A DNA stretch of 33,097 nt from Oscillospiraceae bacterium (GTDB lineage: Bacteria > Bacillota > Clostridia > Oscillospirales > Oscillospiraceae): NCBI GenBank assembly GCA_017465745.1, contig JAFTVM010000025.1:1-33097 (forward strand), in the 5' to 3' direction. Position numbers and translations under genes: made by a program. Below, in pieces: positions 5,907 to 19,441 of this stretch; within the stretch, counting starts at the first letter, position 1, and each line of letters opens with the position of its first letter. The notes under the pieces are model-generated. The model saw only the letters and a program-made list of their open reading frames with translations. It was not told the DNA's origin and did not search any database.

Positions 5907-7412
5907 TCAGAGAATATTGTCCAGGGGCATGGTCAGTTCGTCGATCTCGGCCAGCAGTTCTTTACGGCGGTCGCTGAGCAGCAGGCCGCTGTTGTGGGCG
6001 TAGTATTCCGCGCAGCCGTAGCGGCTGATGAATTTCGCGCCGTAGTGACTGACGGTCAGCTCCGTCACCAGGATCTGGATCTCCTGTCCGGCGCCGAAGA
6101 AATCCTCGCAGAAGCGGAACATGTTGGACATCTTCTCCCCCACTGCCCCGGCATCCGCCTTCAGCCGGCTTCTTCTGTCGCTGATGATCTGCTGCAGTCC
6201 CTTCAGGAGGGCATCCTCCATGGCCATCAGCGGTTCCAGCAGGGCGATGGTGTCCTTGGCCACATGCCGCGCGTCGGCGGACAGATTGCCTGCGCGGATG
6301 CCATTGTCGATGGCAGCCCGGCGGGAGCGGAGCTGGTTTTCCAGTGCAGCCGCAGCAACGGCGCCGGGCCGCATCATTTCCATACGCAGCGCCTTGAAAA
6401 CAGCTGCCAGCTCGGAGAGCACCTGCTCGTCCGTACAGACCCGTTTTGCTTCCGCGGTGACGGCAGACAGCATCAGGCCGATAAGACTCAGCCGCTCGTC
6501 AAAGCGGGCGTTTTTCGCCTTTTCCGTTACATCCGTCCCGGCTTTGCCTGCGAGAATGTGGTCGACCTGGTAGTCAGCGCGGTATTTGTTGAAAAGGTCA
6601 TAGTAAACGGCGAAATCCCGTGCGATGCGGGTATTCTGCAGATACTGCCCCGTCAGCTTTTCATCCACGCTGATGCCCAGTTTTTCATAGAGCCGCAGCA
6701 TCTCGCTGAGGTCGGACCAGCCCCGGGCGGTGGCAAACCGTTTGCCGTCCACAGTGGTTTCGATGGTGTAGAAATCCGCTTTTCTGATCTCCAGATAGGT
6801 CATGACCGCCGCATGGACGCCGCTGTGGTAGGCATATTCCTTCCAGGCCTCGAAATCCGGATCCACATCGATACGCTTCAGCCGGTCCCAGGTGACGATG
6901 TCGAATTCCCGAACGGAATTATTGTACTCCGTCGGATTACCTGCCGTCACCACGATCCAGCCCTCCGGTACCCGGTGGCGGCCGAAGATCTTGTACTGCA
7001 GAAACTGCAGCATGGCGGGAGTCAGCGTCTCGGAGACACAGTTGATCTCATCGAGGAACAGGATGCCCTCTGTGATGCCGGTGGCCTCCATACTGTCGTA
7101 GACGGAGGCGATGATCTCCGACATGGTGTATTCGGACACGTCATACTCCCTGCCGCCGTAGCTTTTGCGGACGATGAACGGCAGACCCAGGGCGCTCTGG
7201 CGGGTGTGGTGGGTCATGGAATAGCTGACGATGCCGATGCCCAGCTCCTGGGCGATCTGCTCCATGATGGCGGTCTTGCCGATACCCGGAGGACCCATCA
7301 AAAAGACAGGACGCTGCCGCTCCAGGGGGATCTCATATTCACCGAAGCTGTTTTTGCTCAGGTAGGCGGTGATGGTATTTTTGATCTGCAGTTTTGCTTC
7401 CTTGATATTCAT
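5907..7412 (-). CDS. MoxR-type AAA+ ATPase
   Basis: A 501-residue protein with a MoxR-like AAA+ module at the N-terminus: Walker A GPPGIGKT (residues 40-47), Walker B GILFLDEIN (116-124) and sensor-1 region VVTAGNPTEYNN. The remaining 270 residues are mostly helical and of unknown role. MoxR ATPases work with von Willebrand A proteins as chaperone or metal-insertion pairs (for example CoxD with CoxE for molybdenum CO dehydrogenase). I chose the ATG at 7412 because GGAGG lies six bases upstream and this ATG overlaps the previous stop (ATGA, 4 bp); the open frame extends eight codons further upstream without a ribosome site. It is the last gene of the operon with the LysR, VWA and DUF6273 genes. 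ATP-driven remodelling of a target complex is likely; the target, perhaps the neighbouring hydroxylase, is inference. Confidence 0.88.
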   Translation of the reverse strand: MNIKEAKLQIKNTITAYLSKNSFGEYEIPLERQRPVFLMGPPGIGKTAIMEQIAQELGIGIVSYSMTHHTRQSALGLPFIVRKSYGGREYDVSEYTMSEIIASVYDSMEATGITEGILFLDEINCVSETLTPAMLQFLQYKIFGRHRVPEGWIVVTAGNPTEYNNSVREFDIVTWDRLKRIDVDPDFEAWKEYAYHSGVHAAVMTYLEIRKADFYTIETTVDGKRFATARGWSDLSEMLRLYEKLGISVDEKLTGQYLQNTRIARDFAVYYDLFNKYRADYQVDHILAGKAGTDVTEKAKNARFDERLSLIGLMLSAVTAEAKRVCTDEQVLSELAAVFKALRMEMMRPGAVAAAALENQLRSRRAAIDNGIRAGNLSADARHVAKDTIALLEPLMAMEDALLKGLQQIISDRRSRLKADAGAVGEKMSNMFRFCEDFFGAGQEIQILVTELTVSHYGAKFISRYGCAEYYAHNSGLLLSDRRKELLAEIDELTMPLDNIL

Positions 7413-8845
7413 ACATTGCCTCCGAAGTCGATCCACATGGCAGGCCGGACAGCGTATTCATTTTCATCCACCCGGTAGCCGTAGGTGCCCAGGCTGCCGG
7501 AATTACCCACCAGGGCGGCAAATTCCGGGCTGACGCCGGGACCGCGGAGCCACCAGCAGTTGATCTGGCCGCCGAAATAGTAACCCCGGGACTGGGCATA
7601 GAGGGTGGTGTAGCCGATGCGGCTTTCGTTGAAATCGAACAGTTCCCCCGCCTCCTCCAGTGTCAGAGCAAAGACCCGGTCGGTGGTATCCCTGCCTGCC
7701 GGAGTCTTATACTTGGGGTTGACGCCGGCGGGGATTGTCACCGCCGGGATCATGGCCTGTTCTTCCGGCGTGAAGGTCAGGTGGAAGAAGGCTCCGTTGA
7801 ACCATTTGCGCAGGTCACAGTGCGCCCAGTCGATGGCACTCTGCTCCCGGTGGTAGGGGATCTTGTCGATGCAATACTTGCTGATGACCAGCAGCCGGGT
7901 CCCCTCTTTTTTCAGCACCTGCCACTGCAGCGGCGCGGAATCAGCGCTCTTGTTCTCGGGATAGAGGCCAAATGCGATGGTATCCCCCGCCTGCGCCGCT
8001 GCAAGGGCAGTCCGGTCGATGGCAGGCTCCAGCTGCGCAGGGCGCTGCCAGTAAAAGCCCTGCACCTCATCCCGGGCGAAAAAGCTCCGGGCGGCGATGC
8101 TGGTGACGGGACGGCCGCCGATCTGCGGCGGTACAAAAACCATGGGTTCCGCCCCCTTGTAGTCGAGGATGTGGACGCCCTCTTCTTCATATACAAAGCT
8201 GAACAGTTTCAGCCAGTCGTATTCGTTCTGCTCCAGAAAGCCCAGCTCCTTGTCCAGCCGGTCCTGCTCGTTGGACTCGACGAAGCTTTCCGGAAAGGTG
8301 TTTTTCTTGTATTCCAGCAGCCAGGCCTTCAGCTCGTGTTTCTGCTGCCGGTCTGTCCGCTCGATCAGCTCGTCCACCAGATCCAGCAGGATCTGATCCC
8401 GGTACTGGCCCTCCTCCAGGATCTTGGTATAGTCCTGAGGCAACGCCTGGTGGTAGCAGCCCAGATACCCCCGGAGGGTATCGATGAGATTCTCTTCCAG
8501 GATCTTTCCGATGATCTCCTCCCGGTTCTCCCGGATGTACCAGAGCATATTCTCCCGCTCCCGGTCAGAGAAAGGCGCATCGGCGGAAAGGAACACCAGG
8601 GCCTCCTCCAGCCGCTCATGCTTCTGGATCCGGTCGAATTCTCCTGCGCCGATCCAGAACTGGACAGGCGTCATGCCGCTGTCTCCCACCAGATAGTCTG
8701 GGCTGCGCTCATCGAGGATACCGCCCCGCTCCAGGACGAAGCTCTCCACCCGCTGGCGGATCACCGCATCCGGCCACAGAACGCAGAACGTCTTCCCGGC
8801 ACACACAATGGCGGGAACCGTCATGGAATAATTTCCTTTGATCAT
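7409..8845 (-). CDS. BRCT-like N-terminus, DUF6273 C-terminus protein in MoxR/VWA operon
   Basis: A 478-residue cytoplasmic protein without signal peptide. Residues about 13-58 (GKTFCVLWP, ESFVLERGGILDERSPDYLVGDS) resemble a BRCT fold, with the GG-to-DYLV spacing typical of it. The middle (75-225) is charged and helical. Residues 233-256 (EPMVFVPPQIGGRPVTSIAARSF, broken here at family level) look like a single BspA-type leucine-rich repeat. Residues about 285-474 match the DUF6273 pattern: GDTIAFGLYP, LQWQVLKKEGTRLLVIS, LRKWFNGAFF, CWWLRGPG and VRPAMWID. DUF6273 has no known enzyme activity; it resembles lectin or FGE-type folds. The gene starts at ATG 8845 behind AAGGAGG and overlaps both neighbours by 4 bp, so it is made together with the VWA protein and MoxR ATPase. 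It may be an adaptor or client of that pair; the role is unknown. Confidence 0.75.
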   Translation of the reverse strand: MIKGNYSMTVPAIVCAGKTFCVLWPDAVIRQRVESFVLERGGILDERSPDYLVGDSGMTPVQFWIGAGEFDRIQKHERLEEALVFLSADAPFSDRERENMLWYIRENREEIIGKILEENLIDTLRGYLGCYHQALPQDYTKILEEGQYRDQILLDLVDELIERTDRQQKHELKAWLLEYKKNTFPESFVESNEQDRLDKELGFLEQNEYDWLKLFSFVYEEEGVHILDYKGAEPMVFVPPQIGGRPVTSIAARSFFARDEVQGFYWQRPAQLEPAIDRTALAAAQAGDTIAFGLYPENKSADSAPLQWQVLKKEGTRLLVISKYCIDKIPYHREQSAIDWAHCDLRKWFNGAFFHLTFTPEEQAMIPAVTIPAGVNPKYKTPAGRDTTDRVFALTLEEAGELFDFNESRIGYTTLYAQSRGYYFGGQINCWWLRGPGVSPEFAALVGNSGSLGTYGYRVDENEYAVRPAMWIDFGGNV

Positions 8846-10182
8846 GGTCTTCCTCCTTCCACATCGTCCCGGTTCAGCACCAGCTTCATGGCCCAGGGCG
8901 GAACATGCAGATCCCGGTAGTCATCGTCCAAAAATACGAAAGCCGTGTCATAATCGGGCTTCCGCTCCGGGTAGATACCCATACCGTCGGTGAAATAAAC
9001 AAGACCCTTGAGATTTCGGAAGGCCTTCTTCTTCCGAAGCGCCTCCACATGGGCAAACACCGGCCGGAAATCCGTGCCGCCGAAGCCCTTCAGGGTCATA
9101 TTCTTCAGATAATCGTCGAATTCCCGCTGAGAAGTAATGCGCACATCCTCCCTGACTTGCGTATCGCACTGGATGATGCGGACATTGATCTTCGACGCAA
9201 AGCTCTCAGCGGATTTGAGGATATTATAGGTCTTCTGTACAAACGCCTGGACTGTATCGCCGGATACGGAGCCGGAGGTGTCGATGGCAATGACGAACTC
9301 CCGGATCTTCTTGATCTCCTTGTATTCCAGCGGCTCCACCAGGGGCATTTTGTCGTAAAGCTTCAGTCCGTAGGTGTAGAAGATGTAGTCGAACTCGTCA
9401 TCATCGATCTTCATCACCTCGCTGCGGGAAGCGAATTTGCGCAGGAACGCGGCATAATCATATCGTTCCCGGTTCACTGCCGTCAGATTCTGCAGCAGAG
9501 CACCTGTATTCTCTCCCCTGCCCCTGGAAAAGGTCTGCAGATCTCCCTGGACATGGCGGGAGATCTCCTCCCAGCGCTGTTCGGATTTCCCCCCGGTGCC
9601 GTCGGCATTGAAGCCGTCCTCCTGGTACCACAGGCCGTGGTCATCGGCCCGGAAGATTTTGCGCAGCTTCCGCAGCTGTCCGGGAGACAGATCCAGCTTT
9701 TCATAATAGCTGTAAATCTTCTCCGCAGTCAGGTGCTTCAGCTTCTGCCGCAGTTCATCGAGCAGCGTCTGCTGTACCGCCGCCCGGGCAGCATCCACGG
9801 CAGGCAGTCCCAACCCGGAAATGATGGCCTCTACCGTGATGTCGCAGGCCAGATCCCAGCATTTTGGTTCCACCTGGGTGTGCAGATACATATGCCGCAG
9901 CAGACAATGCAGCAGCACATGCAGGTAATCCCGCGTCAGCACAGCGGGCTCCTCCCTGTACCGTTTCAGCAGGGAAAACGGCTCAAAATACAGACATTTC
10001 CCGTCGGTCGCAAAGGCGATCTCGTTATGCAGGCGAATCTCCAGGGCGTTGATTGACTCGTCGAGAAACCGCAGGTGCAGATGCAGGGTATTGCGCGCCA
10101 GCTGCAGCGCCTCCCGGGCGATGTCTGATCCCTTCCGGTATTCCTCCGGGCTGACGCCCAGAAATCCATGGCCCGGCAGCAT
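8842..10182 (-). CDS. VWA domain protein with degenerate metallopeptidase-like N-domain (DUF2201 type)
   Basis: A 446-residue protein. The N-terminal part resembles the putative metallopeptidase domain of DUF2201 proteins: HVLLHCLLRH (residues 88-97) followed by CWDLACDITVE (108-118). The expected HExxH is HVLLH, so the catalytic Glu is missing and proteolysis is doubtful. The C-terminal half (about 290-440) is a von Willebrand A domain with an intact metal-binding MIDAS: D301-x-S303-x-S305, GGTDF (368-372) and FTDG (397-400). VWA proteins of this kind pair with MoxR ATPases, here encoded two genes downstream. The ATG at 10182 is two bases after the LysR stop codon and uses a ribosome site (GAGGT) inside the end of the LysR gene. 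Likely cytoplasmic, acting in assembly or activation of a protein complex. Confidence 0.85.
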   Translation of the reverse strand: MLPGHGFLGVSPEEYRKGSDIAREALQLARNTLHLHLRFLDESINALEIRLHNEIAFATDGKCLYFEPFSLLKRYREEPAVLTRDYLHVLLHCLLRHMYLHTQVEPKCWDLACDITVEAIISGLGLPAVDAARAAVQQTLLDELRQKLKHLTAEKIYSYYEKLDLSPGQLRKLRKIFRADDHGLWYQEDGFNADGTGGKSEQRWEEISRHVQGDLQTFSRGRGENTGALLQNLTAVNRERYDYAAFLRKFASRSEVMKIDDDEFDYIFYTYGLKLYDKMPLVEPLEYKEIKKIREFVIAIDTSGSVSGDTVQAFVQKTYNILKSAESFASKINVRIIQCDTQVREDVRITSQREFDDYLKNMTLKGFGGTDFRPVFAHVEALRKKKAFRNLKGLVYFTDGMGIYPERKPDYDTAFVFLDDDYRDLHVPPWAMKLVLNRDDVEGGRP

Positions 10183-11133: not shown

Positions 11134-11163
11134 GCAAGAACCTTTTTATCCGTTGTTCTTTGA

Positions 11164-11192
11164 TTTACAAGTGGTGGTTTCTATGTTATAAT
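11164..11192 (+). promoter_or_regulatory. Sigma-A promoter for the gene at 11223
   Basis: TTTACA (11164-11169), 17 bases, TATAAT (11187-11192). The transcript would start near 11199 and carry a ribosome site AAAGGG before the ATG at 11223. Confidence 0.75.
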
Positions 11193-11222
11193 ATCACAAA
11201 AATCAGAAAGGGTAATCAATTT

Positions 11223-11900
11223 ATGATAGATTTTAATGAAAAGCGCCGCCTGATGGCGATGCTTCCCGAATTTTACATGCTCACCGGTGCCGCCGACGCC
11301 GACAAAATCAAGGACGTCGGCGTCATCGAGGCTGCCACCCCCGCCGAGGTTCTGGCCGCCTCTGAAATGGGTCTGGGCCGCCGTGAGATCTTCTTCACCG
11401 CCCACACGGCTGCCGATACCACCGCTGTCCTGGGCAAGTGCCGGGTCGTGGCCGAATCCTGGGAGGATCTGGTGGCCATCAATGAAGGCGCCGCACCTGT
11501 CACTGCCGAAGGACGGCTGCTGATGGTGGGTCTGCGGATCGTGGCAGACGGTTTTACCTCCGGCAAGAGCGCCATCACCACGGAGCAGCTGCGGGGTATG
11601 GTCCACGATATCAAGCAGCTGAAGAACATCTCCGTCTGCGGCTGCATCGTGGTTGGTGATATCGACGGCCTCCATGGTAAGGCGCTGGGCAAATTCGTCC
11701 GCTCTTCCTACCAGACTGCCAAGGAGATGACCTACATCCTCCCCTGCACCATGCCCTATATCGGCGTGGAGGGCTGTCTGGAAGCCGCCGCCTGGAACGA
11801 GGCCAATCACCCCGAGGATTTCGAAGAATTCCTCACCGCCGCCAACATCGTGGGTATGCAGAATGTCACTGCGTTCTACGCGGATTATTATCTGCAGTAA
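11223..11900 (+). CDS. Unknown protein resembling a PLP-less alanine-racemase-type barrel
   Basis: A 225-residue cytoplasmic protein. I do not recognise a named family. The layout looks like the N-terminal barrel of fold-type-III PLP enzymes: an EAATPAEVLAASEMGL segment (as in the specificity element of alanine racemases and decarboxylases), EIFFTAHTA, then CRVVAESWEDLVAI, LLMVGLRIV, SGKSAITTEQL and ISVCGCIVVGDIDGLH. The first strand, which carries the PLP lysine in those enzymes, is missing, so it is unlikely to be a normal racemase. The start ATG 11223 was chosen for its AAAGGG site; an upstream frame extension has none. The gene is divergent from the LysR operon and ends at a bidirectional terminator opposite the XDH operon. 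It may bind a small ligand or act as an enzyme of unknown reaction; the fold call is inference. Confidence 0.55.
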   Translation: MIDFNEKRRLMAMLPEFYMLTGAADADKIKDVGVIEAATPAEVLAASEMGLGRREIFFTAHTAADTTAVLGKCRVVAESWEDLVAINEGAAPVTAEGRLLMVGLRIVADGFTSGKSAITTEQLRGMVHDIKQLKNISVCGCIVVGDIDGLHGKALGKFVRSSYQTAKEMTYILPCTMPYIGVEGCLEAAAWNEANHPEDFEEFLTAANIVGMQNVTAFYADYYLQ

Positions 11901-11982: not shown

Positions 11983-12900
11983 TCAGAATTTCACCTTAGC
12001 AGACTGCTGGGTCAGCCAGGCCACCAGAGCGGCAAATACTTCAGCCCGGCCGGACTTGGCGCCGGCCACCGGGGTGGCAACAACGGCGATCTGCTCTTCC
12101 GGGATATTCAGCGCAGCTGCGCAGGAGGCGCGAATCTTTTTTTCGTCCCGGCCATTGGTGTAGACGGTCAGGGTATCATCATCGCTGTACAGCACAGTGG
12201 CGCATTCGGGCATCTCAGGGACGCCCCGCTCGTGGTACTCCGTAACAGCGTCGTATTCAATGTCCATGAGGCGGCACAGAACGTCCATCTCCGCCAGATA
12301 CGTGGTGACCACCAGGGCAACCACCTGATTGGTATTTTCTACGGTATCGCCCACACCCACCATACCGTCAAAGCTGCCGGGGATATCGGCCTTGAGGATA
12401 CAGTCGCCGAAGCGGACGTTCTCAAGCGCCCGGGTCATATCGATACTGACAATTCTCGCGCCGGGATTTTTTGCAAAAATGGGCCGCACATAGACCTGCC
12501 GGGGCACGTTTATGTCGTCAGCAAATTTCTTTACGCCACTGACCATGTCCATGATCTGCTTTGATGCAGGTCTGGCCTCGTGCCAGTGGTTCTTTTCCTT
12601 GGACATAACGGCCATACCGGGGGCAAAGAATCCACCGGACAGGGCAGCAGGCCCGGCTAGATGGGCGGCGATCTGCGCCAGTTCATTTTCGGGGATCCCC
12701 TCCACGGTCATGACTGCTCTATCCTTCAGTTCCCGCAGCCGGACTGCCCGGGCGGAGGTCTTCTTCCCGTCCACCAGCACCCAGTCGGCGCCGGCAGCAT
12801 CCTTGGTGCCGGTCAGATTCAGCTCGTCACGCAGAAACGTGATGAGGGTTTTGTCATGGGCTGTAATATACTCTTTTCCGTTGACAGTTACAAAATACAT
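11983..12900 (-). CDS. Truncated xanthine-dehydrogenase-like protein lacking all Fe-S cysteines
   Basis: A 305-residue relative of one-chain (2Fe-2S plus molybdopterin) xanthine dehydrogenases. Residues 1-70 keep the plant-ferredoxin frame (MYFVTVNGKEY, LITFLRDELNLT, VLVDGK, VMTVEGI) but the CGEGxCGxC loop is reduced to DAAGADW. The second cluster site GFCIPGM is GFFAPGM (90-96). Residues 120-218 resemble the hammerhead domain (FADDINVPRQVYVRPIFAKN) and 228-305 the first part of the molybdopterin-binding domain (MPECATVLYSDDDTLTVYTNG, AALVAWLTQ); the protein then stops, so the Mo centre and its Glu are absent. The reading frame is intact and codon use matches neighbours, so this looks maintained rather than decayed. 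ATG 12900 follows GAGAGG. Possible roles: assembly scaffold, subunit decoy or regulator. Confidence 0.8.
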   Translation of the reverse strand: MYFVTVNGKEYITAHDKTLITFLRDELNLTGTKDAAGADWVLVDGKKTSARAVRLRELKDRAVMTVEGIPENELAQIAAHLAGPAALSGGFFAPGMAVMSKEKNHWHEARPASKQIMDMVSGVKKFADDINVPRQVYVRPIFAKNPGARIVSIDMTRALENVRFGDCILKADIPGSFDGMVGVGDTVENTNQVVALVVTTYLAEMDVLCRLMDIEYDAVTEYHERGVPEMPECATVLYSDDDTLTVYTNGRDEKKIRASCAAALNIPEEQIAVVATPVAGAKSGRAEVFAALVAWLTQQSAKVKF

Positions 12901-12914
12901 CGTTGACCTCTCAG

Positions 12915-12946
12915 AAAAAGCCGCGCAGCCCAATGGACTGCGCGGC
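12915..12946 (-). terminator. Intra-operon terminator/attenuator before the XDH-like gene
   Basis: On the minus strand GCCGCGCAG (12946-12938) pairs perfectly with CTGCGCGGC (12928-12920) and runs into five T (12919-12915). It lies after the FAD subunit stop (12959) and only 15 bases before the next start codon. It should lower expression of the last gene relative to the hydroxylase subunits. No separate promoter is visible in the 58-base gap. Confidence 0.85.
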
Positions 12947-12958
12947 AGGATTTAGACC

Positions 12959-13777
12959 TTAGATGCCGAACTTGGTCAGGAACTCGCCCAGCAGGTTCAT
13001 GCAGACAGTCTTACGATATTCTGCGGAAACACGGCCGCGGGTCAGGACCATACGGTCGGAGTAAGCCTTGATGTAGTCAGCCTTCATGGCCTTGGCTTCC
13101 TCGACGGTCTTGCCGATCAGCATAGCCTCGATGTCGGGGTAGCGCAGGACAGTGTCAGCAACAGCGCCGAAAGCGGCAGCGACGTTGGTGATCTTGCCGT
13201 CCTTCTCCTCGAAGACACCGGCGAAGGAAACACGGGAGATGGCCAGAGCGTTACGGCCGCCGACCTTCTCGTAGTAGTAGTTCTCCAGACCGGTCTTGGG
13301 CAGCAGAACCTCAGCAATGATCTCGTCGGAGCCCAGATCCAGCTTCTTGCGGCCCAGGTAGAACTTGTCGACGTCGACAATGCGCTCGCCCTTGACGCTC
13401 AGCAGGCGCAGCTTGGCGCCGGCGACGAAGTTGATCAGGACGGAGTCAGCCTTGGCGGAGCCGTTGCCCAGGTTGCCGCCGAAGGTGCCGGCGTTACGGA
13501 TAGCGCAGGCAGCGATACGGGAGATGGCTTCCTTCATCAGCTGGGGAACGTTCTCGTTGGCAATAGCCTCGGTGAAGGTAACACCGGAGCCAATGCGGAT
13601 ATAGTTGTCATCAACGACGACCTGCTTCAGCTCCTGGACCTTGTTCAGGAACAGATAGGTGACGTTGGGACGATTCTCGACCATCAGGTCGGTACCGCCG
13701 GCGTAGGGAACTACGTCGTGGGCAGCACGGATCTCCAGTGCCTCCTGGAGAGTCTTAGGTGCGTAACCGTTTACCAT
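12959..13777 (-). CDS. xdhB: Molybdenum hydroxylase FAD-binding subunit
   Basis: A 272-residue protein of the CoxM/XdhB type that passes electrons from the Fe-S subunit to FAD and an external acceptor. FAD-binding motifs are PYAGGTDL (24-31) and the RNAGTFGGNLGNGSAKAD stretch (94-111); the C-terminal CO-dehydrogenase-flavoprotein domain follows (about 165-270). I chose the ATG at 13777, which overlaps the end of the Fe-S subunit gene by 7 bp and has GGAGG ten bases upstream. It is the fourth gene of the operon and is followed by a terminator. The family and size match three-subunit enzymes (xanthine, nicotinate, purine hydroxylases); the exact substrate is not shown. Naming follows the E. coli xdhABC scheme. 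Confidence 0.9.
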   Translation of the reverse strand: MVNGYAPKTLQEALEIRAAHDVVPYAGGTDLMVENRPNVTYLFLNKVQELKQVVVDDNYIRIGSGVTFTEAIANENVPQLMKEAISRIAACAIRNAGTFGGNLGNGSAKADSVLINFVAGAKLRLLSVKGERIVDVDKFYLGRKKLDLGSDEIIAEVLLPKTGLENYYYEKVGGRNALAISRVSFAGVFEEKDGKITNVAAAFGAVADTVLRYPDIEAMLIGKTVEEAKAMKADYIKAYSDRMVLTRGRVSAEYRKTVCMNLLGEFLTKFGI

Positions 13778-14244
13778 AAACCGTTGCCCTCCTTTGCAGC
13801 AGTGTTGATAGCAGAGACGATGGCGTTGTAGCCGGTGCAGCGGCACAGGTTGCCGGACAGGCCTTCACGGATCTCGTCGATGGTGGGGTTGGGGTTCTTG
13901 CTCAGCAGAGCTTCAGCAGCCAGGACCATGCCGGGGATGCAGAAACCACACTGGACAGCGGAGATGCCGGCGAAGGCCTTCTCCAGGCAAGCAAAGCGCT
14001 CGGTCTCGCGGAAGCCTTCCACGGTAACGATGGAGGTGCCTTCCACAGCGCCCATAGCGACGCAGCAGGAGTTGATCAGGGTGCCGTCGATCAGGACGGA
14101 GCATGCACCGCATTCGCCTTCCTTACAGCCGCACTTGACGCTCTTGCAAGCGTAGGTGTCTCTCAGGACATCCAGCAGACGGTCAGCAGCGCTGCCTTCG
14201 TAGGCAACTTCTACGCCGTTGAGAACAAACTTAATTGCATCCAT
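13771..14244 (-). CDS. xdhC: Molybdenum hydroxylase 2Fe-2S subunit
   Basis: A 157-residue small subunit carrying two [2Fe-2S] clusters. Cys40, Cys45, Cys48 and Cys60 form the plant-ferredoxin cluster (CKEGECGAC, then NSC); Cys99, Cys102, Cys134 and Cys136 form the second (QCGFCIPGM, LCRCTGY). All eight ligands are present, in contrast to the degenerate paralog at 11983-12900. It transfers electrons from the molybdenum centre to the FAD subunit. The ATG at 14244 lies five bases after the large-subunit stop and its AAGGAGGT ribosome site is formed by the last codons of that gene. Length is normal. Confidence 0.93.
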   Translation of the reverse strand: MDAIKFVLNGVEVAYEGSAADRLLDVLRDTYACKSVKCGCKEGECGACSVLIDGTLINSCCVAMGAVEGTSIVTVEGFRETERFACLEKAFAGISAVQCGFCIPGMVLAAEALLSKNPNPTIDEIREGLSGNLCRCTGYNAIVSAINTAAKEGNGLW

Positions 14245-16384: not shown

Positions 16385-17002
16385 CTAACGTTTCTTTTCA
16401 TATTGTTCTTTGCATTGATCGTAGTCCTCTTTGGTATCGAGGTCTACCCAGACGCCGGTATCGTTCACCGGCACTGTGCGAATGATGGATTCAAGCTGCT
16501 TCCAAAGCTGCCGCAGTCCGCCCTCACCGTCGAATTCCAGAATTTTGGGCACAAGTCTGAAATCCACCAGCGGCGGATGTTTGCGATAGCCGTCCAGGGT
16601 CGGAAAAATGACACTGACTTCCGCATCTCTCCGGGAAATGACAGAACGGAACGTACTTTCCCGCACCACGGGCATATCGCCGGGCAGCAGGAAAAATGCG
16701 TCGCATTCCGGCAGCCTGCGGCATCCGATCCGGATGGATGTGAGCATGTCCGTGGTGGCGAAGTCTTCATTCCGGGCGATGATAACCCGGTCTGCATACT
16801 TTTCCTCCAGGATCGGCTCCAGCTCTCCGGCCCGGTGACCGGTCACAACGACGACCTTTTCCGCTCCGGCCGACAGGATGCTGTCGATGGTATTTTCGAT
16901 CAGCGTCTTGCCGCGCAGGGGCATCAGCGGCTTGAATGCCTGCATGCGCGTGGACAGCCCTGCCGCAAGAACAAGACCGCAATAGGTTTCTTCCTGCAAC
17001 AA
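16385..17002 (-). CDS. mocA: MocA/MobA-like molybdenum cofactor nucleotidyltransferase
   Basis: A 205-residue nucleotidyltransferase that probably adds CMP (or GMP) to molybdopterin for the hydroxylase encoded next door. The binding signature LAAGLSTRMQAFKPLMPL and the metal-binding LLPGDMPVV are intact. It is the first gene of the hydroxylase operon. No ATG is available: the frame opens with TTG codons. I place the start at TTG 17002, seven bases after an AAAGGGG site; TTG 16999 is an alternative, and TTG 17020 precedes the site and is unlikely. In B. subtilis (pucB) and E. coli (mocA) similar genes serve xanthine dehydrogenase. Confidence 0.85.
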   Translation of the reverse strand: MLQEETYCGLVLAAGLSTRMQAFKPLMPLRGKTLIENTIDSILSAGAEKVVVVTGHRAGELEPILEEKYADRVIIARNEDFATTDMLTSIRIGCRRLPECDAFFLLPGDMPVVRESTFRSVISRRDAEVSVIFPTLDGYRKHPPLVDFRLVPKILEFDGEGGLRQLWKQLESIIRTVPVNDTGVWVDLDTKEDYDQCKEQYEKKR

Positions 17003-17034
17003 AAGACCACCCCTTTGCAAAATACGAACAAGAA

Positions 17035-17126: not shown

Positions 17127-18053
17127 TTATATGATTTTTGTGGAAATAAACCGTTTTTTGAATTCTGTCTGGGTAAAGTGATGAACAGCCTGTTCAAAAT
17201 CATGGTAAGCCGTCAAGAATTCCCTGCCCTGCTCCGTCAGCCGGGTGCTGCCGCCGGACCGGCCGCCCCGCTGACGCTCCACCACACTGTAGCCCAGATG
17301 CTGTTCCAGGCCGTTGATCATATCCCATGCCTTGCTGTGGGCAATACCGGAACAGGCACAGGAGGTGCGCATATTGTTGGTATCCGCCAACAGGTACAGC
17401 AGCAGCTTCAGCCTGGCGGAGAAAAAGGCGGATTCCTGCTCCAGCTTCATGTGCAGCACGGGATGAAGGATGGCGGAATTATGCTCGTCCAGCTGGGCGC
17501 GGAGTTCCGCTTCGTCCCGCACATTGGTCACAACGCCCCTGTCATCCACCGGCACCCACTTCCGGGGTGCACTGCAGGCATCCAGAGCGCCCCGCAGTCC
17601 ATTGCCGCCGGTATAGGAGAGGACCTGGGGAAATACGTCCTCGGACAGCACCACAGGATGGCCGCCCCTGCCCTGATAGGAGGGCGCTACGATCTGCCCT
17701 TCTGTGCCGATCAGCTCCGCCAGAGTCACCGGCGAAAACATGGGCACATTCACCGGCGTCAACACCGCCCGGTCACATTTGCCCCGGAGAAATTCCAGGC
17801 CGATCCGGATGGAATCCATCAGCTCAGGCTGGTCGCCCCTTACGTTTTCCAGGAAGATCACGCCAAAGGCAGAAAGCTGCCGTTTGATCTCGTCAGGCTC
17901 CCGGCCGGTGACCACAACGATGGGGAAAATACCCACCTGCTGGTAGGTAATGACGATTCTTTGAATAATGGGAATGGCTCCCACCTGCAGAAGGGGCATG
18001 GCGGCTTCGTGATTCGCCACGGCGATCACGCCGCCCACTTCACCTAGTTTCAT
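17127..18053 (-). CDS. ModE-type regulator fused to a degenerate MobA/MocA-like domain
   Basis: A 308-residue two-part protein. Residues 1-195 have the nucleotidyltransferase fold of MobA/MocA (IPIIQRIVITYQQVG, VVVTGREPDEI, RGGHPVVL) but the nucleotide loop LAAGxSxRMGxxK is replaced by AVANHEAAMPLLQV, with no Gly-x-Arg-Met or Lys, and the metal-binding PGDxP is PVNVP (100-104). Catalysis is therefore unlikely. Residues about 208-300 are a ModE-like winged helix (FSARLKLLLYLL, SKAWDMINGLEQHLGY, GGRSGGSTRLTEQG). It probably senses molybdenum cofactor, a nucleotide or molybdate and regulates the hydroxylase operon downstream. The ATG 18053 has GGAGG seven bases upstream; a longer frame starting at 18143 lacks this and covers a structured leader. 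Confidence 0.85.
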   Translation of the reverse strand: MKLGEVGGVIAVANHEAAMPLLQVGAIPIIQRIVITYQQVGIFPIVVVTGREPDEIKRQLSAFGVIFLENVRGDQPELMDSIRIGLEFLRGKCDRAVLTPVNVPMFSPVTLAELIGTEGQIVAPSYQGRGGHPVVLSEDVFPQVLSYTGGNGLRGALDACSAPRKWVPVDDRGVVTNVRDEAELRAQLDEHNSAILHPVLHMKLEQESAFFSARLKLLLYLLADTNNMRTSCACSGIAHSKAWDMINGLEQHLGYSVVERQRGGRSGGSTRLTEQGREFLTAYHDFEQAVHHFTQTEFKKRFISTKII

Positions 18054-18071
18054 ACTTACGCCTCCGTGAGC

Positions 18072-18139
18072 CGGAAGCGTTATCCCTCCGAAAGGAATAC
18101 GCTTCCGCATACGCAACAAGTGCAGCACTGCGGCTGCAC
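18072..18139 (-). promoter_or_regulatory. Structured 5' leader of the ModE-fusion gene
   Basis: Two hairpins precede the start codon on the minus strand: GTGCAG/CTGCAC (18139-18134 with 18125-18120) and a perfect 9-bp stem CGGAAGCGT/ACGCTTCCG (18107-18099 with 18080-18072) topped by an imperfect extension. The leader spans about 85 bases. Position before a molybdenum regulator makes a cofactor riboswitch thinkable, but I cannot match it to the Moco RNA consensus by eye. Confidence 0.4.
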
Positions 18140-18175
18140 TCATTTATTATATATGATAATTCATTTATTATCGAA
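18140..18175 (-). promoter_or_regulatory. Promoter with direct and inverted repeats for the ModE-fusion gene
   Basis: TATAAT (minus, 18151-18146) has only a weak -35 (TTCGAT at 18175-18170). TCATTTATTAT occurs twice on the plus strand (18140-18150 and 18161-18171), 21 bases apart, i.e. two helical turns, and GATAAT-N6-ATTATC (18155-18172) is a perfect inverted repeat. This suggests regulator binding, perhaps autoregulation. Confidence 0.5.
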
Positions 18176-18302: not shown

Positions 18303-18331
18303 GAAAGAAAAAACAAACAGAGGTGACCAGC

Positions 18332-19441
18332 ATGATCAAACGTTTCCGCATGTCCACTGCCCTGGATGTGGACGACCTGCTGATGGAGTGCATCCCCTAT
18401 GCCATCCGTCTTGCCAACGAAAAGTACAAGTTTGATCCCCCCATTACCATTTATGAGGTGGATCGCTGGGGCAAGCTGGACAGCCGGGCCGATGTGATCT
18501 TCGAATTCTTTGATGATCCCGATTTCTACCGGAATCAGCCCGTGATCCAGGGGGCCAAGGAATTTGTCCGGAAGCTGAGCAAAATGACCGACGTCTTCAT
18601 CTCCACCTCCATCCCGCCCAAGTATATGGGCATCCGGGCCGAGCGGATTATGGAGGAATTCCCCGAGATCCCCCCGGAGCACATTTACATGGGTTCCCGG
18701 AAGGACAAGCTGGATGTGGATATCCTCTTCGACGACGGCATGCACAACGTTTTCAAATCCAACGCCTCCTACCCCATCCTCATGCGCCGCCCCTGGAACC
18801 AGTCCGCCACGGGTATGCTGGCCGTCAACAACTATGACGAATTCCTGAAGCTGCTGGAAGTCATCACCACCAGTTACACCTACGTGGAGGGCACCGAGGA
18901 AAAACCCAGCATCGTGGTGCTGGTGGGCCCCTCCGGTTCCGACAAGCGGAAGATCGCCAAGACTCTGCTGGAAAAGTCCGACTGCTTCGGTATGCTGGTC
19001 AGCTACACCACCAAGGAATCCGCATCGGAGAATGAAAGCGACCTGTATATCCACATCTCCAAAAATAAGTTCTTCGACATGCTGGAGCATGGTGAATTCT
19101 TCGAATCCACCATGTATGCCGGCCACGGCTTCGGCTCCCGGAAGGAAGATGTGGACCGGATCCTTCGCAGCGGAAAGATCGTCCTGGCCACCATGGACAT
19201 CTGCGGCGCCATGGCGCTGAAGACCAACTATTCCGGCGTCACCACCGTCTACATCAAGCAGCACCGCCGGGAGCTGCTGACCTCCATCCTTCAGAAGGAC
19301 GGGTGCATCGAGGACAAGGTCACCCGCATCATCGCTATTGACGATGAAAAGCGCAACCGCGAGATCTGCGACCACATCGTCTACCATGAAGGCTGCGACA
19401 AGACAGCGGAGAATATCCTCTCCATGCTGCATCTGAAATAA
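18332..19441 (+). CDS. Fusion of NT5C-type 5'-nucleotidase (HAD) and guanylate-kinase-like domain
   Basis: A 369-residue two-domain protein. Residues about 5-180 look like the cytosolic 5'(3')-deoxyribonucleotidase (NT5C) branch of HAD hydrolases: nucleophile motif ALDVDDLL (Asp12, Asp14), FISTS (89-93) and DILFDDG (130-136). Residues about 192-369 follow guanylate kinase: P-loop GPSGSDKRK (199-207), VSYTTKES (223-230), ISKNKFFDMLEHGEFFEST and GKIVLATMDICGAMALK. The loop has Asp where GMPK has Gly and RK in place of Ser-Thr, so phosphate transfer may be impaired and the domain may only bind nucleotide. Joining a phosphatase to a kinase-like domain suggests nucleotide-level control in purine turnover. 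The ATG at 18332 has the best-spaced ribosome site; GTG 18323 overlaps it. Confidence 0.8.
   Translation: MIKRFRMSTALDVDDLLMECIPYAIRLANEKYKFDPPITIYEVDRWGKLDSRADVIFEFFDDPDFYRNQPVIQGAKEFVRKLSKMTDVFISTSIPPKYMGIRAERIMEEFPEIPPEHIYMGSRKDKLDVDILFDDGMHNVFKSNASYPILMRRPWNQSATGMLAVNNYDEFLKLLEVITTSYTYVEGTEEKPSIVVLVGPSGSDKRKIAKTLLEKSDCFGMLVSYTTKESASENESDLYIHISKNKFFDMLEHGEFFESTMYAGHGFGSRKEDVDRILRSGKIVLATMDICGAMALKTNYSGVTTVYIKQHRRELLTSILQKDGCIEDKVTRIIAIDDEKRNREICDHIVYHEGCDKTAENILSMLHLK

Follow-up and report, generated by a model that had tools for sequence, protein, structure and literature searches.

The loading of selenium and molybdenum into enzymes of the molybdenum hydroxylase class is partly understood, and in complex I the NuoG protein, with a Mo-type domain that holds no cofactor, is a pseudo-subunit of a redox enzyme. 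In CO dehydrogenase, maturation of the Mo site involves CoxD, an AAA ATPase, and CoxE, a VWA protein (PMC4240915), and in the xanthine dehydrogenase (XDH) of R. capsulatus the cofactor enters the assembled apo-enzyme (PMC2997495). Selenium-dependent hydroxylase loci have been described, including C. difficile loci without FAD or Fe-S subunits (PMC11448449; PMC2276186), and XdhD has been found to act on uric acid (PMC12507026). Our search of the open-access literature, which covered titles and the beginnings of abstracts, found no cofactor-less xanthine dehydrogenase paralogue. Pseudoenzymes are known as a kind; one in the XDH class is new as far as this search reaches.

Here we describe such a paralogue, encoded next to xdhB in a window of 33,097 nucleotides (the whole stretch of DNA analysed, positions 1 to 33,097 of contig JAFTVM010000025.1, assembly GCA_017465745.1, from an Oscillospiraceae bacterium, our genome G000). 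We refer to it as the stripped paralogue. The xdhA, xdhC and xdhB genes of the window are open frames with clear domain-family matches that stay below the NCBI strict equivalog cut-offs.

Table 1. Features of the xdh locus, in positions of the window
Feature	Position	Strand	Basis
xdhA, molybdenum subunit, 706 aa	14250..16370	-	NCBIfam and Pfam
xdhC, small subunit with 2x[2Fe-2S], all eight cluster cysteines by eye	13771..14244	-	NCBIfam and Pfam
xdhB, FAD subunit	12959..13777	-	NCBIfam and Pfam
Terminator-like hairpin between xdhB and stripped paralogue, 12 pairs (10 G-C), loop 3, T run	12920..12946	-	pattern scan and fold
Likely ribosome binding site GAGAGG, 6 nt before ATG	12907..12912	-	read from sequence
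Stripped XDH paralogue, 305 aa	11983..12900	-	frame, family matches, alignment, orthologues
Convergent gene, no known family, other border of the slot	11160..11900 (ATG at 11223)	+	homologues beside the slot

The gene of the stripped paralogue starts with an ATG at 12900, ends with a stop codon at 11983-11985 and has no internal stops. An upstream start (TTG 12933, in a frame open to 12951) was rejected, since the ribosome site is placed for the ATG at 12900. The best NCBIfam family is TIGR03311, the one-chain selenium-dependent xanthine dehydrogenase, matched with E 9.5e-27 in three stretches; the protein spans consensus positions 1-422 of 866, and the score of 93.4 bits does not reach the curated cut-off of 830.45 bits. 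In Pfam, an a/b hammerhead domain just reaches the gathering score (31.4 vs 31.3), a MoCoBD_1 stretch stays under its threshold (23.1 vs 27), and neither Fer2 nor Fer2_2 is matched up to E 1. XdhC/CoxI and Rossmann domains are absent among the three Pfam families matched up to E 1. The first 120 residues align with small subunits of the XdhC/PucE/CoxS type (pucE, 1.7e-12), and the protein is 36% identical to the one-chain enzymes C50 and C66. By the E value, this identity and a common genomic slot, we judge that the stripped paralogue is of common descent with the TIGR03311 enzymes. The earlier note on this DNA had likewise related the 305-residue protein to one-chain XDH, in a clean frame and behind a good ribosome site, and all three statements agree with our results, the site being a plausible one.

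To describe the cofactor sites, we aligned the three carriers of the stripped paralogue with 14 full-length one-chain enzymes, and based the counts on 13 of them because one duplicate locus was dropped. None of the eight cluster cysteines of these 13 enzymes is left: three (36, 129 and 131) lie within deletions and five (41, 44, 56, 94 and 97) have given way to A, D, R, G and F, respectively. The CRCTGY region is missing, and the molybdopterin motif VGGGFGGKED reads VAGAKSGRAE. Six deletions comprise 117 consensus positions: the first cluster loop is shorter by 5, the surroundings of CRCTGY by 51 and the hammerhead by 8, two stretches ahead of the Mo domain account for 25 and 24, and one past the Mo motif for 4. 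The gap edges depend on the alignment used. An argument that these deletions had preserved the reading frame was dropped, since a measurement made on proteins proves nothing in this respect. The enzyme's second half is missing as well, and the stop codon lies 82 bases from the next gene. Among 115 family-invariant positions, 46 are kept, 28 deleted and 41 substituted; family core motifs, e.g. the C-terminal AALxAW...KVKF, are among the best kept parts.

The alignment shows that the regions of the ferredoxin-type fold, the hammerhead domain and the first Mo-domain unit remain, and that the regions predicted to hold both [2Fe-2S] clusters and molybdopterin are deleted or substituted. With these losses, the predicted protein cannot itself transfer electrons through the lost cofactor sites. 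The comparison with full-length enzymes thus upholds what had been read from the letters: all Fe-S cysteines are gone, GFCIPGM has become GFFAPGM, and the Mo-binding half is lost, the protein ending at consensus 422 of 866 and the GGGFGGKE motif being altered.

A query with xdhA led to 12 loci in genome_contigs. At L062 (Oscillospiraceae MAG RGIG8797), an orthologue of 305 residues, 68% identical, lies directly after xdhB. The L061 contig (Oscillospiraceae MAG RGIG8705) ends in xdhC, and a second contig of RGIG8705 carries xdhB (97%) together with an orthologue that is 76% identical. All three orthologues are exactly 305 aa long, with no gaps and no stop between them. We rejected an assembly artefact, since the two orthologues differ from the window protein by 24% and 32% and share its length and end; between themselves they differ by 28%. 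That the same protein recurs at the same length in two more genomes is beyond what chance would be expected to give.

In one lineage, the stripped paralogue gene is maintained under strong purifying selection. Its pairwise dN/dS values are 0.125, 0.101 and 0.174, with dS of 1.92, 1.74 and 1.25, so close to saturation that these ratios are rough. A maximum likelihood codon model gave an omega of 0.121 with lnL -2616.3; fixing omega at 1 lowered lnL to -2768.0, and that value is rejected (2 x delta lnL ~303). The differences at codon positions 3/1/2 number 171/67/58, 159/54/44 and 153/54/56 in the three orthologue pairs. In the L062 and L083 comparisons, the flanking genes other than xdhABC had dN/dS of 0.15-0.40, dN of 0.12-0.37 and dS of 0.63-1.36, ranges that omit the L061 ABC row (34% identical, probably not an orthologue). 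The stripped paralogue, with dN of 0.241 and 0.176 in these comparisons, falls within the range of the flanking genes and has the highest dS; dN of XdhABC is 0.01-0.05. By dN, therefore, the constraint on it is similar to that on its non-xdh neighbours and far weaker than that on XdhABC. The picture of a maintained paralogue that lost every cluster ligand and kept its frame is thus supported by intact 305-aa orthologues and an omega of 0.121. The two homologues of the cysteine-less form are both intact, not broken remnants, and dN/dS is not near 1, either pairwise (0.10-0.17) or by maximum likelihood (0.121). Note that xdhA, xdhC and xdhB have a dS of 0.20-0.42, vs 0.63-1.92 for the other genes of the block in the same genome pairs (L062, L061 and L083); this likely reflects strong codon selection, with recombination as the alternative.

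The stripped paralogue is known from three genomes, G000 and two other Oscillospiraceae MAGs. By their record titles, two of the carriers are from the colon of water deer. The genome samples searched overlap and were drawn from larger groups, except for the genus of G680. The window's own genome was the single match in the family (1 of 250 genomes at 1e-25), the order (1 of 394 at 1e-20), the genus (1 of 61 at 1e-10) and the phylum (1 of 398 at 1e-28), and also when a three-row profile was run on the family (1 of 400 at 1e-40). In the genus of G680, two of 135 genomes matched at 1e-18, G679 and G680. The genus of G029 gave matches in 16 of 25 genomes at 1e-10, every one in a frame of 862-1052 aa, which is full-length size. 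Among six genomes reached via xdhA, two have an orthologue, two have only frames of 850-873 aa and two have no match (1e-5). One of the latter two is G681, with an xdhA that is 87% identical and ~1.0 Mb of available sequence, its contig ending after xdhA. A protein pattern scan of genome_contigs found no relative, a negative that carries no weight, since the scan also missed L062, a carrier in this collection that was reached only via xdhA. In plasmids, tblastn returned two records, 25% identical and both annotated as selenium-dependent xanthine dehydrogenase. With a listed contamination of 7% for G000 and no such gene in 60 congeners, the window contig may belong to a relative. In the tree, the enzymes C50 (G000) and C66 (G679) group as sisters (support 88), a relation that fits one common lineage. 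Cysteine-less versions beside xdhABC, whose recurrence the earlier note had put forward as a check, therefore do recur within one small lineage of three genomes and, in the samples searched, no wider.

What occupies the slot after xdhB in relatives suggests where the gene came from. Directly after xdhB, L065 (the same locus as L026), L027, L067, L068 and L072 have a full-length one-chain enzyme, and L084 has one ~280 bases downstream. In L026, L068 and L067, the gene that follows the full-length enzyme is homologous to the window's 11223-11900 gene (38, 39 and 27%). With the same position after xdhB and the same next gene, the stripped paralogue occupies the place of the full-length enzyme. 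Gene order thus suggests duplication, then remodelling in place, as the probable origin; in the tree (311 columns) the stripped-paralogue branch is 1.33 long and its placement, with a bootstrap of 48, is unsupported. As for the convergent gene itself (~225 aa), it matches nothing in NCBIfam or Pfam up to E 1 and borders a one-chain enzyme or the stripped copy in L062, L083, L068, L026 and L067, and a homologue (22%) lies near xdhB in L069. It is a conserved gene tied to one-chain xanthine dehydrogenases or the stripped copy.

Other loci differ. L028, L029, L030, L038 and L069 have the full-length one-chain enzyme upstream of xdhA, and L070 has xdhA without xdhC or xdhB. In L064 (xdhA 80% identical), neither the stripped paralogue nor a full-length enzyme is seen within the 558 readable bases after xdhB. 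L061, L063 and L066 end before the slot, and L015 ends within xdhB. L031-L037 and L039-L041, several of which are short stretches, gave no match to the stripped paralogue at 1e-12. The stripped paralogue was not seen beside xdhA in any of 16 other genomes (some stretches short), and hence maturation in general does not depend on it. G000 and G679 each carry two full-length one-chain copies elsewhere in the genome. The third carrier, G680, has no TIGR03311 match over the cut-off, so that either a one-chain partner may be unneeded or this MAG is incomplete.

The product of the stripped paralogue is likely scarce. Scored with xdhABC weights, its codon use is 0.338, vs 0.769 for xdhA, 0.693 for xdhC and 0.795 for xdhB, a comparison that is loaded because the reference genes score themselves. 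On the same scale, mobA has 0.235, mobA-modE 0.257, ORF8842 0.294 and lysR 0.427, and the transporter genes have 0.578, 0.664 and 0.752; the stripped paralogue falls with the first four of these seven genes, away from the transporter genes. With weights from xdhA only, in a scoring that left out L027, L072, L083 and the lysR of L062 (whose frame took in its stop and codons from upstream), the stripped paralogue has 0.350 in the window and 0.287 in L062, vs 0.67-0.78 for the xdhABC of the window; the full-length enzymes that occupy the slot in L065, L068 and L067 have 0.722, 0.561 and 0.717, and the C50 full-length copy of G000 has 0.685. The view that codon use matches the neighbours consequently had to be given up: at 0.34 vs 0.69-0.80 for xdhABC, it resembles that of low-expression genes instead.

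A hairpin with a T run, comparable to that of Table 1, precedes the stripped paralogue in all three carriers when the intergenes are folded (window -27.7, L062 -29.7 and L083 -30.7 kcal/mol); the one in L062 is visible in the fold and was not listed by the pattern scan. Terminator-like sites number 12 in the window region, vs 4.6 in shuffles. The full-length enzyme, too, has a hairpin before it in L067, L072 and L084, though not in L065 and L068, and hence the hairpin alone is no marker of low output. A promoter-like match at 12893-12865 (-) lies within the stripped paralogue, and such matches are about as frequent as in shuffles (3 vs 1.9).

The surrounding block has the order mobA-modE, mobA, xdhACB, stripped paralogue, convergent gene, LysR, VWA, DUF6273 and AAA ATPase. 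It is syntenic as a whole in L062, and its part from xdhB to the ATPase is syntenic on the L083 contig. An AAA_5 ATPase, a DUF6273 protein and a VWA/DUF2201 protein lie in a row at 5907-10182 (-), syntenic in L062 and L083, the ATPase just under the MoxR family cut-off (26.0 vs 27). By analogy, this AAA ATPase/VWA pair beside a selenium-type hydroxylase is reminiscent of the CoxD/CoxE maturation module. The LysR regulator scores over the cut-off of a selenium-metabolism family. On the other side of xdhA, a MobA-like nucleotidyltransferase fused to a ModE-like DNA-binding domain (below cut-off) is encoded at 17127-18143 (-), and a second MobA-like gene at 16385-17020 adjoins this fusion. A fusion of 5'-nucleotidase (NT5C) and guanylate kinase domains lies at 18323-19441 (+), beside a BMP-family ABC transporter set.

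The loss of catalytic and cofactor residues under purifying selection points to a pseudoenzyme, for which a non-catalytic role is predicted. While the orthologues show that the stripped paralogue exists and is maintained, its function is something we infer. Our preferred mechanism, held tentatively, is that of a scarce cofactor-free pseudo-subunit that would assist or restrain the neighbouring molybdenum hydroxylases in their assembly. On this view, a pseudoenzyme produced in small amounts would have arisen in the slot after xdhB by remodelling of the first half of a one-chain selenium-dependent XDH. This protein would dock where the ancestral domains docked, on apo-XdhA or on the full-length one-chain enzyme, and would serve as a placeholder or a brake during cofactor insertion and subunit assembly. 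Since the cofactor is inserted into the assembled apo-enzyme in R. capsulatus XDH, domains copied without their cofactor sites would lend themselves to holding the apo-state. That it is a self-derived chaperone, with both Fe-S loops and the Mo site excised and the docking scaffold kept, which would occupy apo-XdhA until the Se/Mo-loaded cofactor arrives, we regard as unlikely. We know of no molybdenum hydroxylase with such a mechanism.

We lean somewhat against a neofunctionalised binder, whose scaffold would sense a ligand (purine, molybdate or cofactor) or bind DNA or another protein without contact to a hydroxylase. The long branch (1.33), the substitution of 41 of 115 family-invariant positions and a codon use near that of regulators such as lysR would suit a protein of this kind; however, the gene stays directly behind xdhB in three genomes, and its best kept parts include family core motifs such as AALxAW...KVKF. 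The earlier note had proposed a structural or gating subunit of XdhABC. A stoichiometric subunit of this type would agree with a gene on the same strand, next after xdhB and with its own ribosome site, but appears quite improbable given a codon use far from that of xdhABC (0.34 vs 0.69-0.80), a terminator-like hairpin after xdhB in 3/3 carriers and xdhA without the stripped paralogue in 16 other genomes (some stretches short). Note that low-expression codons and a hairpin in all three carriers argue against a stoichiometric structural subunit; a scarce partner in assembly or regulation would be compatible with both. We give as little weight to a decoy or brake aimed at the full-length one-chain enzyme alone, which would lower activity through mixed complexes with one active half missing: the stripped paralogue derives from the one-chain family and G000 and G679 hold two full-length copies each, but G680 has none over the cut-off, and the part needed for Mo-domain dimerisation is probably mostly missing. 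Finally, half of the ancestor is gone and full-length copies are found elsewhere in G000 and G679, as a slowly decaying, functionless remnant of the one-chain enzyme would predict. The omega of 0.121, the rejection of omega 1 (2 x delta lnL ~303) and the absence of any indel or stop among three lineages at pairwise dS of 1.2-1.9 make such a remnant very improbable.

A natural scaffold without cofactor sites would show which surfaces of the enzyme merit keeping without catalysis, and the stripped paralogue could serve as a small bait for maturation partners in gut purine degraders. Domain-based annotation could label it a xanthine dehydrogenase, which by its predicted sequence it cannot be.

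Compared with known systems, the stripped paralogue shares with the one-chain selenium-dependent XDH (TIGR03311) the domain order over the first half and, in five relatives, the slot after xdhB. Unlike this enzyme of ~866 aa, it has 305 aa, 0/8 cluster cysteines, no molybdopterin motif and low-expression codons. Its N-terminal 120 residues align with [2Fe-2S] small subunits of the XdhC/PucE/CoxS type, but it is without cluster cysteines and with hammerhead and Mo-domain parts; to our knowledge, these small subunits carry neither. As with the XdhC-family chaperones and CoxD/CoxE, the stage at which it would act is maturation in the xanthine-oxidase family, and its block includes genes for an AAA ATPase and a VWA protein. 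It differs from the XdhC-family maturation chaperones in having no XdhC/CoxI-type domain. Neither those chaperones nor CoxD/CoxE are, as far as we know, copies of the enzyme itself. In contrast to NuoG, it belongs to a different enzyme family and has lost both the Fe-S and the Mo sites of one polypeptide; as occurs with NuoG, a redox domain has been retained after the loss of its cofactor.
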